Assembly (NCBI GenBank): GCA_902521645.1
Contig: CABYSN010000002.1
Span: 1-52,296 of the forward strand
Length of the DNA stretch: 52,296 nt
Source of the DNA: Planctomycetota bacterium
GTDB taxonomy: Bacteria > Planctomycetota > Phycisphaerae > Phycisphaerales > SM1A02
Direction: 5' to 3'
Shown here: positions 24,626-44,541 of the stretch, piece after piece
How positions within the stretch are numbered: position 1 is the first letter of the stretch
Layout of the letters: every line of letters begins with the position of its first letter
The notes under the pieces: model-generated
The model's database searches: none
Seen by the model: the letters and a program-made list of their open reading frames with translations, nothing else
What the model was told of the DNA's origin: nothing
Position numbers and translations under genes: made by a program

Positions 24626-25669
24626 TCAACCAAGTGCGCTTCGGACCATTTCGGCTCTCGCCGAGAGTGAGTCGTCGTTCTCTTCCATGGTTGTTCCGCT
24701 CAGGGCGCACAGGTGCGCCGGCTGCACGTTGAGAAGAAGCCGATGGATCACGGCGAGGTCAGGTGAATCGACCACGCCGAGGGCCCGGCCTATGCGGAGC
24801 CTGCTCAGAAGTTTGATCGCTTCATCTATTCCCAGGAGACGGGCTGAAAGAAGCGTGCCGTGTGCTCGGTGGACGAAATCTTCGAGCATCATCCTCTTCT
24901 TCTCTTGAAGCACGCTGCGTGCATGTCTTTCATACTCGACGAGCTGGGGGACCACCGAACCGAGGAATTCCTCGAGCAATTCCTCCTCCGACGTGCCCAG
25001 GGTGATCTGATTCGAAATCTGGAAGAAGTCTCCGATCGATTCACTGCCCTCCCCGTGGTATCCGCGCACGGCAAGATCGAGATCCTTGGCGGCCTGGCGC
25101 ACTCGTCCCAGTTCCTCCGTGATTCGAAGTGCCGGAAGATGAAGCATGACCGAGAAGCGGATGCCGCAGCCGACGTTGGTCGGACACGCGGTCAGAAAGC
25201 CCCATCGTGGACTGAATGCGAATTCAATCGACGATTCGAATTCATCCCTGACTTCGGAGACCCTCTGAAAGGCCTCTCTCAGGGCAAGTCCGGGGGCCAG
25301 CGTCTGGATTCTCAGATGGTCTTCTTCGTTGACCATCACACTCAGTCTTTCGTCCTTCGAGATCGCCACGCCACGAGGAAAGGTGGCATCGGCGAATTGG
25401 TGCGAGATCAGGTGTCGTTCGACGAGCATGCGACGATCCCGGTCGCCCATGTTCTCCATCTCGAGCCACATCAGGTCGGCGTCATGTCCTGCGAACATCG
25501 GGATGCGTCGGACCATGCCCACCACTTCATTGCGGTCGGGGTCACTGGCCATGCCCACGAATGGAACTCCGGCGACATTGCGCGCCAATCGAACTCGGCT
25601 GGAGAGGACGATGTCCCAGTCCTTGCCGGAGGCTCCAAGCCACGAATCCTTGTCAAGTGGTCCGACCAT
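24626..25669 (-). CDS. mcsB: Protein-arginine kinase McsB
   Basis: About 347 residues of the phosphagen-kinase fold. The nucleotide-binding motif SSRVRLARN is near residue 25. HLISHQFA, VMVNEEDHLRIQ and the CPTNVGCGIRFSVMLHLPAL loop follow. It phosphorylates arginine side chains of proteins, marking them for ClpCP. The C-terminus reads SLSARAEMVRSALG, where Bacillus McsB has an RDxxRA phosphoarginine-binding motif. From memory, only the final RA is kept. The ORF-track start at 26083 lies inside mcsA; the ATG at 25669, five bases after the mcsA stop, is the true start. McsA is the expected activator and ClpC (42-44.5 kb) the likely partner. Confidence 0.95.
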   Translation of the reverse strand: MVGPLDKDSWLGASGKDWDIVLSSRVRLARNVAGVPFVGMASDPDRNEVVGMVRRIPMFAGHDADLMWLEMENMGDRDRRMLVERHLISHQFADATFPRGVAISKDERLSVMVNEEDHLRIQTLAPGLALREAFQRVSEVRDEFESSIEFAFSPRWGFLTACPTNVGCGIRFSVMLHLPALRITEELGRVRQAAKDLDLAVRGYHGEGSESIGDFFQISNQITLGTSEEELLEEFLGSVVPQLVEYERHARSVLQEKKRMMLEDFVHRAHGTLLSARLLGIDEAIKLLSRLRIGRALGVVDSPDLAVIHRLLLNVQPAHLCALSGTTMEENDDSLSARAEMVRSALG

Positions 25670-25674
25670 CTGTC

Positions 25675-26178
25675 TCACTCTTCTCCGCCGAGCATCGAGC
25701 CACCGAGTCCCTGAAGGGAGTCCCGGATCTCCGCGGCGCGTTCGTACTGTTCGGCCGCGATGGCTTCGTTCAATTGCTTGAGCAGTTTGGAGCGCTGCAG
25801 CTGGCGGTCCATGTGCCCTTCCTGTCGTTCCGGAATGTGGCCGGAATGGTGGCTGGCGCCTCCCTGAGCTCTGGCAATCAGTGGTTCGAGATGTTTTTCG
25901 AAGGCCTGATAGCAGTTCGGGCAGCCAAGAACGCCATGGTGGCGGAACTTCGCGATGGAGAGGCCGCAGGTCGGACAACTCGTCGACCGGCGTTTCTGCG
26001 ACTGCGGAGGAACAGGGATCGCCTTGGCGAATTGCTGAGCCATGGGGCCACCGGTCGATCCGTAGCCCTCTGCCGCGGCGCATTCCGGGCAGAGGTGGAT
26101 CTCCTGTTTCTTGCCATTCTTGATCCGGACCTCGTGGACCTGGGCAGGCTTCTCACATCTGTCGCATTTGTGTTCCAT
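25675..26178 (-). CDS. mcsA: McsB activator McsA (zinc-finger, UVR motif)
   Basis: About 167 residues. Two zinc-binding pairs sit in each half: CDRC and CPEC near the N-terminus, CPTC and CPNC around residues 95-115. The C-terminus is a UVR motif (LLKQLNEAIAAEQYERAAEIRDSLQGL), the helical hairpin shared with UvrB/UvrC and ClpC that mediates contact with McsB or the Clp ATPase. McsA stimulates the arginine kinase McsB, and the mcsA-mcsB order with a 5-base gap is the classic arrangement. The ATG at 26178 is preferred to the TTG at 26199. No CtsR repressor gene accompanies the pair. Confidence 0.93.
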   Translation of the reverse strand: MEHKCDRCEKPAQVHEVRIKNGKKQEIHLCPECAAAEGYGSTGGPMAQQFAKAIPVPPQSQKRRSTSCPTCGLSIAKFRHHGVLGCPNCYQAFEKHLEPLIARAQGGASHHSGHIPERQEGHMDRQLQRSKLLKQLNEAIAAEQYERAAEIRDSLQGLGGSMLGGEE

Positions 26179-40909: not shown

Positions 40910-41806
40910 TCATTGATCGTCACGCATCTTCCTGCGTGAAATGATCGCCCAGCCTCGCGCTGCATGGTCCGAAACATTGACGAGCGTGATTGAGCCCGCC
41001 TGCTCGGTCCGGTGGGATTCTCCGTACTGTGCGACCTGCCCCGTCTTGGTCGCGTTCTTCGACATCCACACCGAGAGTTTCGCATTTCGACACAGGAGAA
41101 GCATTCGTGTGCCTGCAACGAAGGTTCCATCGAGATGGCGCTCATGGTCCGCCTCGAGAGTGATCGGGAAGATCAGGATCTTGGTTCCAGGGTGTCTTTT
41201 CTCGAATCTGGCAAGAGCCCTGCGATCGGTTCTTCCGGCTTCTTTTTCAAACCTCTCTCGGTCGACCGCCTTGAGTGCCTTCGCTTTGGTCTTTTCGATC
41301 CAGCGGAACCCGGTCGTTTGATCCTGGAGTCCTTCGGCGGCCTGACTTTCGGTCTTCTCAAACTCCTCGGTCGTCTCTTCGACTTCGGCTGCAGGTTCCT
41401 CGACTTCGATGGTCTCCTCGGTCGCCTCTTCGACTTCGGCTGCAGGTTCCTCGACTTCGATGGTCTCCTCGGTCGCCTCTTCGACTTCGGCTGCAGGTTC
41501 CTCGACTTCGATGGTCTCCTCGGTCGCCTCTTCGACTTCGATGGCCTCTTCGTTCCCCTCTCCGGCGAACCAGAGCGTGACCTCTTCGTCGGTGGCTGTG
41601 GCCATCTCACCGGCTTCCGGTTCGAGGGCTTCCGTCTCGTCGGCGACCGTCGTCGTGTCGTTTTCCTGAGATCTGCTTTCATCCTCCGATGAGGTTTCCG
41701 CGACGTCCGTGGCCGGTTGATGAGTTTTTTCCATCCAGCCTCCCGTCTTGCATCCTTGAACAAGCAATGCGGCGAAAAGGCATGTCAGTGCGGGAGTGAG
41801 TTTCAT
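40910..41806 (-). CDS. Lipoprotein with acidic 17-residue tandem repeats
   Basis: A 298-residue protein of unknown function. A lipoprotein signal (LTCLFAALLVQGC) is followed by ~150 residues rich in Glu, Thr and Ala. Within these, the unit VEEATEETIEVEEPAAE occurs three times in tandem plus a degraded copy. The C-terminal ~130 residues form a basic, globular domain (RFEKRHPGTKILIFPITLEADHERHLDG, GSITLVNVSDHAARGWAIIS). The acidic stretch probably spans the periplasm or peptidoglycan as an extended tether. The gene lies downstream of clpC on the same strand, after a terminator hairpin. Confidence 0.7.
   Translation of the reverse strand: MKLTPALTCLFAALLVQGCKTGGWMEKTHQPATDVAETSSEDESRSQENDTTTVADETEALEPEAGEMATATDEEVTLWFAGEGNEEAIEVEEATEETIEVEEPAAEVEEATEETIEVEEPAAEVEEATEETIEVEEPAAEVEETTEEFEKTESQAAEGLQDQTTGFRWIEKTKAKALKAVDRERFEKEAGRTDRRALARFEKRHPGTKILIFPITLEADHERHLDGTFVAGTRMLLLCRNAKLSVWMSKNATKTGQVAQYGESHRTEQAGSITLVNVSDHAARGWAIISRRKMRDDQ
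41363..41543 (-). repeat. 51-bp tandem repeat inside a lipoprotein gene
   Basis: Copies of a 51-bp unit beginning CTCCTCGGTCG (plus strand) start at 41363, 41414 and 41465, with a partial copy from 41516. The copies are almost identical at the DNA level. The period is a multiple of three, so copy-number change would keep the reading frame and only lengthen or shorten the acidic linker by 17 residues. Confidence 0.92.
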
Positions 41807-42006: not shown

Positions 42007-44541
42007 TCACGCGGTCGTGGCTTCAGGCTCATCCTTCGCTTCATCAGACTCTTCCTGAGGAATGTCGGAGGAGGTGAAGTACAGATGGTCGTCCTCGTCC
42101 TTGCGGGTCACTTCGATGATCTGATTCGCCGAGAACTCTCCGGAAAGCAGGGCTTCCGCCAGGGGGTCCTCGATGAACCGGGCAAGCGCTCTTCGCAGGG
42201 GGCGAGCACCGAAGTCGGGGTTGTAGCCCTTGTCGATCAGGAAGTCCTTCGCAGGCTGATCGATCTCCAGCTTCATCTCCTTCGCAGCGAGTCGCTCTCG
42301 AAGCTTGCCGAGTTCGAATTCGATGATGTGGTTGAGGTCGTCCTTCACCAGCGGCTGGAAGACGATGGTCTCGTCCAGACGGTTGATGAATTCAGGTCGG
42401 AAGAACTTCTCCACTTCGCCGTTCAGCGCCTTCTTGATCTTCTCATAGTCGGGGGTGTCGGATTTCTTCGTGAATCCGAAGGCCGACCCGCCCTTGATGA
42501 TGTCCGCGCCCAGGTTGCTGGTCATGATCAGGATCACGTTCTTGAAGTCGACCTGTCGACCGAATGAATCGGTCAAACGACCTTCTTCCATGATCTGAAG
42601 CAGCATGTTGAAGACGTCTGGATGAGCCTTCTCGACTTCGTCGAGAAGAACCACGGCATAAGGACGTCGTCGGATCCGCTCGGTGAGCTGGCCGCCTTCT
42701 TCGTAACCGACGTATCCGGGAGGGGCGCCGACCAGACGTGAGACGTTGTGCTTCTCCATGTACTCCGACATGTCGAGATAGATGAGGGCGTCCTCGTCAC
42801 CGAACATGAACGAAGTGAGCGCCTTGGCCAGCAGTGTCTTGCCCACGCCGGAGGGGCCCACGAAGAGGAAGCAGCCCATCGGTCGTTTGGGATCCTTGAG
42901 TCCCGAACGCGCCTTGCGGATCGCGCGAGCGACCGCCTTGACGGCGTCGTCCTGGCTGACGACGGAGTTGTGCAGCTCGTCTTCGAGCTTGAGCAGTCGT
43001 TCCGATTCGTCCTTGTCGAGTCTGGTGAGAGGCACGCCGGTCATCTTGGAGACGACTTCCGCGATCACGTGTTCGTCGACGGTTCCCACGGTCTCGTTCA
43101 TGGAGGCTCTCCATGCCTGCTGGACGTCCTCCTTCTCCTTGCGAAGCTTCTCCGCCTGATCTCGAAGGCTCGCCGCCTTCTCGTAGTCGGCGTTCTTGAC
43201 CGCCTCGTCCTTGTCGATGGAGAGTCTTTCGATCTTCTCCTCGAGTTCGGCCAGGTTCGGGGGCTTGGTCATGCTCTTGAGTCGCAGACGCGCACCGGCC
43301 TCGTCGATCACGTCGATCGACTTGTCGGGCTGGACTCTCGTCGAGATGTAACGGTTCGAGAATTCAACCGCGGCACGAAGCGCCTCGTCGGTGATCTCGA
43401 CACGGTGGTGGGCGGCATACTTCTCGCGGATGCCCTTGAGGATCATGATCGTCTGTTCATCGTTCGGCGGTTCGACCGCGATCGACTGGAATCGTCTTTC
43501 GAGCGCGGCATCCTTCTCGATGTACTTTCGGTATTCATCGAACGTGGTGGCGCCGATGCATTGGATCTCGCCTCGGGAAAGGGCTGGCTTGAGCACGTTG
43601 GAGGCGTCGATCGCACCTTCCGCTCCACCGGCGCCCACGAGGGTGTGAAGTTCGTCGATGAAGAGGATCACGTTCTTCGCGCGGCGGACCTCGTTCATGA
43701 CGGCCTTGATGCGCTCCTCGAACTGTCCGCGGTACTTCGTTCCAGCGACCATCATGGCAAGGTCGAGCACGACGAGTCTCTTGTCGAAGAGAAGGTCCGG
43801 AACCTCCTGGGCGATGATCGCCTGTGCGAGTCCTTCGACGATCGCGGTCTTGCCCACTCCGGCCTCACCGAGGAGTACCGGGTTGTTCTTCGTTCTTCGG
43901 CAGAGGATCTGGATGACTCGCTCGATCTCCTCCGAACGGCCGATCACCGGATCGAGTTCCTCGTTCTTGGCGAGTTCGGTCAGGTCACGACCGAAGCTGT
44001 CGAGCGCGGGGGTCTTGCTCTTGCCGCGACGCGGTGTCGCCTGAGCGGATTCACCACCGCCGATGGGGGATTCGCCACCATCTTCGGTTTCCTCCTGGTC
44101 CACGCCGGCTCCGAGAAGGTTGAGAACCTCTTCGCGGACTTCTTCAAGCTTGAGTCCGAGGTTCAGCAGCACCTGTGCGGCGACACCATCGTGTTCTCTG
44201 AGCAGCCCGAGGAGGAGGTGTTCCGTTCCCACGTAGTTGTGGTTGAGGTTGCGTGCCTCCTCGATCGCGTATTCGATGACCTTCTTGGCACGTGGGGTCT
44301 GAGGAAGCTTGCCCATCGTGACCATCTCGGGTCCACTCTTGACGAGTTTCTCCACCTCGAGTCGGACCTTGCGAAGATCGATGTCGAGATTCTTCAGGAC
44401 GTTCGCCCCGACTCCCGAACCTTCCTTCACCAGGCCGAGCAGGATGTGCTCGGTACCGATGTACTCGTGGTTGAACCGCTGCGCTTCCTGATTGGCGAGT
44501 GCCATCACCTTGCGAGCTCTATCCGTCAGACGTTCAAACAT
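42007..44541 (-). CDS. clpC: ATP-dependent Clp protease ATP-binding subunit ClpC
   Basis: An 844-residue Hsp100 ATPase. Residues 1-145 are two Clp-N repeats ([38 protein letters not shown]), the phosphoarginine-reading domain in Bacillus. The first AAA domain has [15 protein letters not shown]. The middle domain with a UVR motif ([28 protein letters not shown]) marks it as ClpC rather than ClpB or ClpA. The second AAA domain has [14 protein letters not shown], and an acidic Glu/Asp-rich tail ends the protein. It unfolds substrates for ClpP, which is not in the window. AGGAGG lies 8 bases before the ATG. The kinase McsB and its activator McsA are encoded 16 kb away. Confidence 0.97.

Follow-up and report, generated by a model that had tools for sequence, protein, structure and literature searches.

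Loss of Bacillus-type phosphoarginine receptor residues from the McsB of a planctomycete lineage

Described McsA–McsB systems

To our knowledge, work on protein-arginine phosphorylation has been confined almost entirely to Bacilli. In Staphylococcus aureus, ctsR, mcsA, mcsB and clpC are arranged in one operon. The kinase McsB of Bacillus subtilis binds the phosphoarginine (pArg) of a neighbouring dimer, with the phosphoryl group held by R337, R341 and S285 and the guanidinium by D338 (PMC8370763). An R337A/D338A mutant of this enzyme is mainly dimeric, while R194K removes the donor of the octamer and makes cells heat-sensitive (PMC8370763). McsB activity in S. aureus is McsA-dependent, with a zinc finger positioning the catalytic cysteine via a nearby loop, and an Arg–Glu bridge helps to hold the McsA–McsB tetramer together (reviewed in PMC12467219). 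The unfoldase ClpC has T7, E32, K85 and E106 in or around two pArg pockets (PMC12583610), and Thr11 in the loop of a YwlE orthologue sets phosphoarginine preference (PMC8001253). In Chlamydia trachomatis, mcsAB is separate from clpC and ClpCP needed arginine-phosphorylated casein, with the kinase not purified there (PMC10128030).

The planctomycete system described here has likenesses to each of these. With McsB of B. subtilis and Geobacillus (6TV6, 6FH1-6FH3) it shares the whole fold, the catalytic residues, the McsA partner, R341-A342 and the C-terminal helix; however, S, L and I replace R337, D338 and S285, the lineage is without CtsR, and clpC lies outside the operon. It belongs to a different phylum from S. 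aureus, whose McsA–McsB (8GQD) has likewise lost R337-D338 and kept R-A: S. aureus McsB reads S-V-K-E-K-R-A, placing V and K at 337 and 338, as read by eye, the program's own alignment being shifted and ending early. With C. trachomatis, a Gram-negative member of the PVC group, it shares the location of mcsAB apart from clpC.

The mcsAB locus, its neighbourhood and its distribution

On the minus strand of the window (the whole stretch of 52,296 nucleotides that was analysed), mcsA (25675..26178, ATG start) lies 5 nt upstream of mcsB (24626..25669, ATG start), which encodes a protein-arginine kinase of 347 amino acids. The McsB protein matches Pfam ATP-gua_Ptrans at 1.2e-65 in a profile search, has 'protein arginine kinase' as its top NCBIfam match (6e-108) and aligns over its full length with McsB crystal structures at 38-40% identity. 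An AlphaFold2 model built with 64 related sequences as input (mean pLDDT 93.8) is nearest to 6FH1, 6FH3 and 6TV6 (TM 0.89-0.92 over about 340 columns), and has the overall McsB fold with a C-terminal helical dimerisation domain. The phosphagen-kinase catalytic domain carries Glu121, Cys167 and Glu212, and N119, E121, H123, C167, R207 and E212 are invariant in all 187 planctomycete McsBs compared. The adjoining gene product, the kinase activator McsA, has two CxxC zinc-finger pairs and a UVR motif (NCBIfam McsA match, 4e-34). The McsB scores fall under the curated NCBIfam equivalog cut-offs (360.9 versus 385 bits for NF002194; 330 versus 500 for NF053707), as does the McsA score under its own, which weakens formal membership, not the structural and genomic case; McsB is the best-matching family by far, and the protein is assigned to it on fold, partner and residues. 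A dN/dS of 0.025-0.035 among three congeners corresponds to strong purifying selection, indicating that the kinase is maintained and ruling out a pseudogene. Arginine phosphorylation of proteins is its predicted activity; a literature search turned up no biochemical study of a planctomycete McsB.

The third component, the AAA+ unfoldase gene clpC (42007..44541, minus strand), encodes a protein in which R5, T7, R9, E32, K85 and E106 (Bacillus ClpC numbering) are all conserved. An earlier note on this DNA correctly gave its distance from mcsAB as 16 kb, but this spacing represents a shared gene block, not a dispersal peculiar to this genome. In five relatives (G002, G006, G010, G018 and G031) clpC is found 4–16 kb from mcsAB, and in four of them largely the same genes intervene as in the window, including those for DAHP-synthetase-family, DUF1444, glutamine amidotransferase and squalene-hopene-cyclase-like proteins. 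Because the intervening genes occupy both strands, the neighbourhood is not an operon, and the class III heat-shock layout, a single operon that opens with ctsR and closes with clpC, is not present. CIRCE and HAIR operators do not occur above chance in the window, and a promoter scan near mcsA yielded one weak match, no more than chance. A neighbour of clpC (40910-41806) encodes a secreted-looking protein with tandem VEEATEETIEVEEPAAE repeats and no Pfam match. In a close congener, clpC is broken into two frames (G004:C14:69898-72265), the second piece having four in-frame TGA codons; this is probably a frameshift or assembly error.

Genes for the protease and a phosphatase are found across the order. 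A search for clpP, proposed in the earlier note, saw none in the window's genome, which is 54% complete, and recovered ClpP from 59 of the 61 genomes of the order, usually as two genes in tandem; the two exceptions are the window's genome and another that is likewise incomplete. Each of the 61 genomes has one or more low-molecular-weight phosphatases. A YwlE-type loop, CTGNTCRS, occurs in the window's genome (G000:C47:13-420) and in most relatives read, and this CxGNTCRS P-loop with Thr at position 11 marks a putative arginine phosphatase. With McsB, McsA, ClpC and a YwlE-like gene, the system has its writer, activator, reader and eraser.

Having McsAB but no CtsR is a trait of the whole planctomycete phylum. 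Of the 294 Planctomycetota genomes sampled, almost all with a completeness of 90% or more, 288 encode McsB, and McsB, McsA and ClpC are all present in the 61 genomes searched within the order, in nearly all of which McsA adjoins McsB. CtsR was detected in none of the 294 genomes, nor in the window's 54%-complete genome, by a search in which Lactococcus matched as a control and the B. subtilis control genome did not. That genome matches the ClpP and low-molecular-weight phosphatase families, not CtsR or PF00217, and PF00217 matched no control genome; B. subtilis possesses both genes, and the control set seems incomplete there. The co-occurrence of mcsA, mcsB and clpC without ctsR, as claimed before, is thus borne out, and no ctsR was found beside another clpC copy. 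The occurrence of the module outside Firmicutes likewise holds, but not the rarity this implied, since it is nearly universal in Planctomycetota and found in Chlamydia too (PMC10128030).

Several further McsB occurrences were recorded. One relative (G055) has two McsB copies (C25:35610-36620 and C5:192904-193995), each with its own McsA. The plasmid NZ_CP110821.1 of the intracellular endosymbiont Candidatus Bandiella woodruffii encodes an McsB-like kinase domain (55503-56171; 31% identity to B. subtilis) in a gene annotated as hypothetical. McsB was not found on viral contigs. A contig labelled Bacteroidia (L037; JASGCG010000063.1) carries an McsB nearly identical to those of Phycisphaerales, and the label is most likely a binning error.

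Receptor residues and their order of loss

The window McsB retains only part of the Bacillus pArg receptor. Its C-terminus (...NDDSLSARAEMVRSALG), aligned to that of Bacillus (...NERDIRRAALIRERL), gives S-L-S-A-R-A for R337-D338-x-x-R341-A342, confirming a comparison that the earlier note had made; the B. subtilis reference sequence was itself confirmed at 100% against NZ_AP028965. The motif lies in the C-terminal helix (residues 332-347; 24629..24676, minus strand), which spans residues 332–346 in the AlphaFold2 model. In Bacillus order R337, D338, S285, R341 and A342, the window McsB has S, L, I, R and A, leaving R341 of the four receptor residues, and an intact RDxxRA, which the earlier note had named as evidence against a degenerate motif, does not occur anywhere in the protein. 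Among the 187 planctomycete McsBs, 138 retain R337, 32 retain D338 and 88 retain S285; R341 and A342 are kept in every one. The window McsB and its two closest relatives have S or T at 337, L at 338 and I at 285; as there is no Arg at either 337 or 338, R341 is the sole remaining documented contact.

The donor side of the Bacillus octamer is also unevenly distributed. Arginine is present at the position aligned to Arg194 in the window McsB, and its phosphorylation is predicted. Position 194 is lysine in 123 of the 187 planctomycete proteins, matching the octamer-defective R194K mutant, and R194 occurs together with RD in only four. On these counts, a caged octamer held by pArg194 is unlikely to be general across Planctomycetota, though other phosphosites could dock, or oligomers could form otherwise.

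On trees built without the motif columns, parts of which are weakly resolved, the receptor residues were lost stepwise and lineage-wide, with no accompanying change in the catalytic residues. RD occurs in Bacillota (four sequences, sampled together with PDB chains as the representatives outside Planctomycetota) and in deep planctomycete lineages. D338 is replaced by N in a large Planctomycetia-type clade; none of the 92 sequences in the Phycisphaerales clade has it, and most have R there instead. Within the Phycisphaerales clade, 49 sequences form a fully supported group that matches the window's family; 46 of these have also lost R337, and all 49 lack D338. Outside the Phycisphaerales clade, 92 of 95 planctomycete McsBs keep R337. 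An IQ-TREE analysis of 92 rows gave the same order of loss, with five changes for D338 and three for R337. A tentative extension, somewhat less probable than even, is that the whole order took its pArg pocket apart in a set sequence, D338 before R337, and retained kinase, activator, reader and eraser; product feedback would thereby have given way to arginine phosphorylation gated by McsA alone.

The phylum thus offers a natural gradation that starts at RDxxRA, passes through RNxxRA or RRxxRA and ends without a receptor. Together with the presence of McsAB without CtsR in nearly every genome, this makes the generality of the Bacillus model, with its pArg feedback and gated octamer, testable, and predicts an arginine phosphoproteome in planctomycetes. 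Loss of the pocket with an intact catalytic site suggests that the kinase is switched on another way.

Possible modes of kinase activation

The favoured reading, given a probability of about 0.68, is a working McsAB tagging system for ClpCP with a YwlE-like eraser, in which the Bacillus-type pArg receptor has been lost and control lies mainly with McsA. The McsA–McsB kinase would tag proteins with phosphoarginine for the ClpC-ClpP protease, and the YwlE-like phosphatase would take the tag off. In a lineage whose McsB has lost the receptor pocket, retaining R341 but not R337, D338 or S285, pArg-driven self-association and self-stimulation would most likely be absent. Activation would then fall mainly to McsA, with its second zinc finger touching the loop that precedes the catalytic cysteine, as it does in S. 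aureus. All relatives have an McsA partner, the McsA-contact loop positions F157/Y163 are intact as F and F in the window McsB, and the equivalents of the S. aureus tetramer salt bridge (Bs R272 and E287) are kept in 186/187 and 183/187 planctomycete proteins, respectively. These kept bridge and loop residues, with the S. aureus precedent, favour McsA-gated activation without pArg feedback. From the genes and residues present we infer the kinase activity, its substrates, the coupling to ClpCP, the loss of pArg binding and the role of McsA as main switch. The earlier suggestion that allosteric sensing may be lost is likewise the best reading of the residues, and S. aureus shows the same loss inside Bacilli.

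Other readings of the receptor residues would retain or discount pArg sensing. The invariance of R341-A342 counts against receptor loss, given that R341 contacts the pArg phosphoryl in Bacillus, and implies that some ligand-binding or structural function persists. It would fit a receptor that was remodelled, with R341 and newly gained residues, such as the Arg frequent at 338 in the order, still binding the phosphoryl and pArg feedback running on different chemistry; most Phycisphaerales, with R-R-x-x-R-A, do keep positive charge here. This is nonetheless unlikely, as the window McsB and its two closest relatives are left with R341 among the documented contacts and have no acidic replacement for D338 to meet the guanidinium. 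A more doubtful proposition is that R337-D338 sensing was never general, mattering only in Bacilli that build a pArg194-stabilised octamer and drifting elsewhere. The frequent lysine at the donor position, the rarity of donor and RD receptor together, and the E or P at 194 in two Clostridia sampled are consistent with it, but deep planctomycete lineages and most Bacillota sampled retain RD, and this retention, like that of R337 outside the Phycisphaerales clade, argues that the positions were constrained before drifting.

It is very improbable that the protein acts on free arginine as a phosphagen kinase, or that the gene is decaying, instead of encoding a protein-arginine kinase. McsB does belong to the phosphagen kinase superfamily, but the N-terminal phosphagen-kinase domain is missing from the window protein, and the McsA partner, the whole-length McsB fold and the strong purifying selection already disfavour both versions. 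The reading of a receptor-less, mainly McsA-switched kinase is preferred to these alternatives.

The activator itself also varies. The fourth zinc ligand of McsA (Cys or Asp) is correlated with the receptor state of McsB, a correlation that comprises only four independent changes and carries no statistical weight. Where the ligand is Cys, McsB is of the Phycisphaerales type; where it is Asp, McsB is mostly of the RD, RN or RS type. In 53 of 115 McsAs read, the final zinc ligand in the second finger is Asp in place of Cys (GCPHDY versus GCPNCY); these proteins are among L053-L111 (e.g. L089, L110 and L054), with the window McsA (25675-26178) as the contrast.
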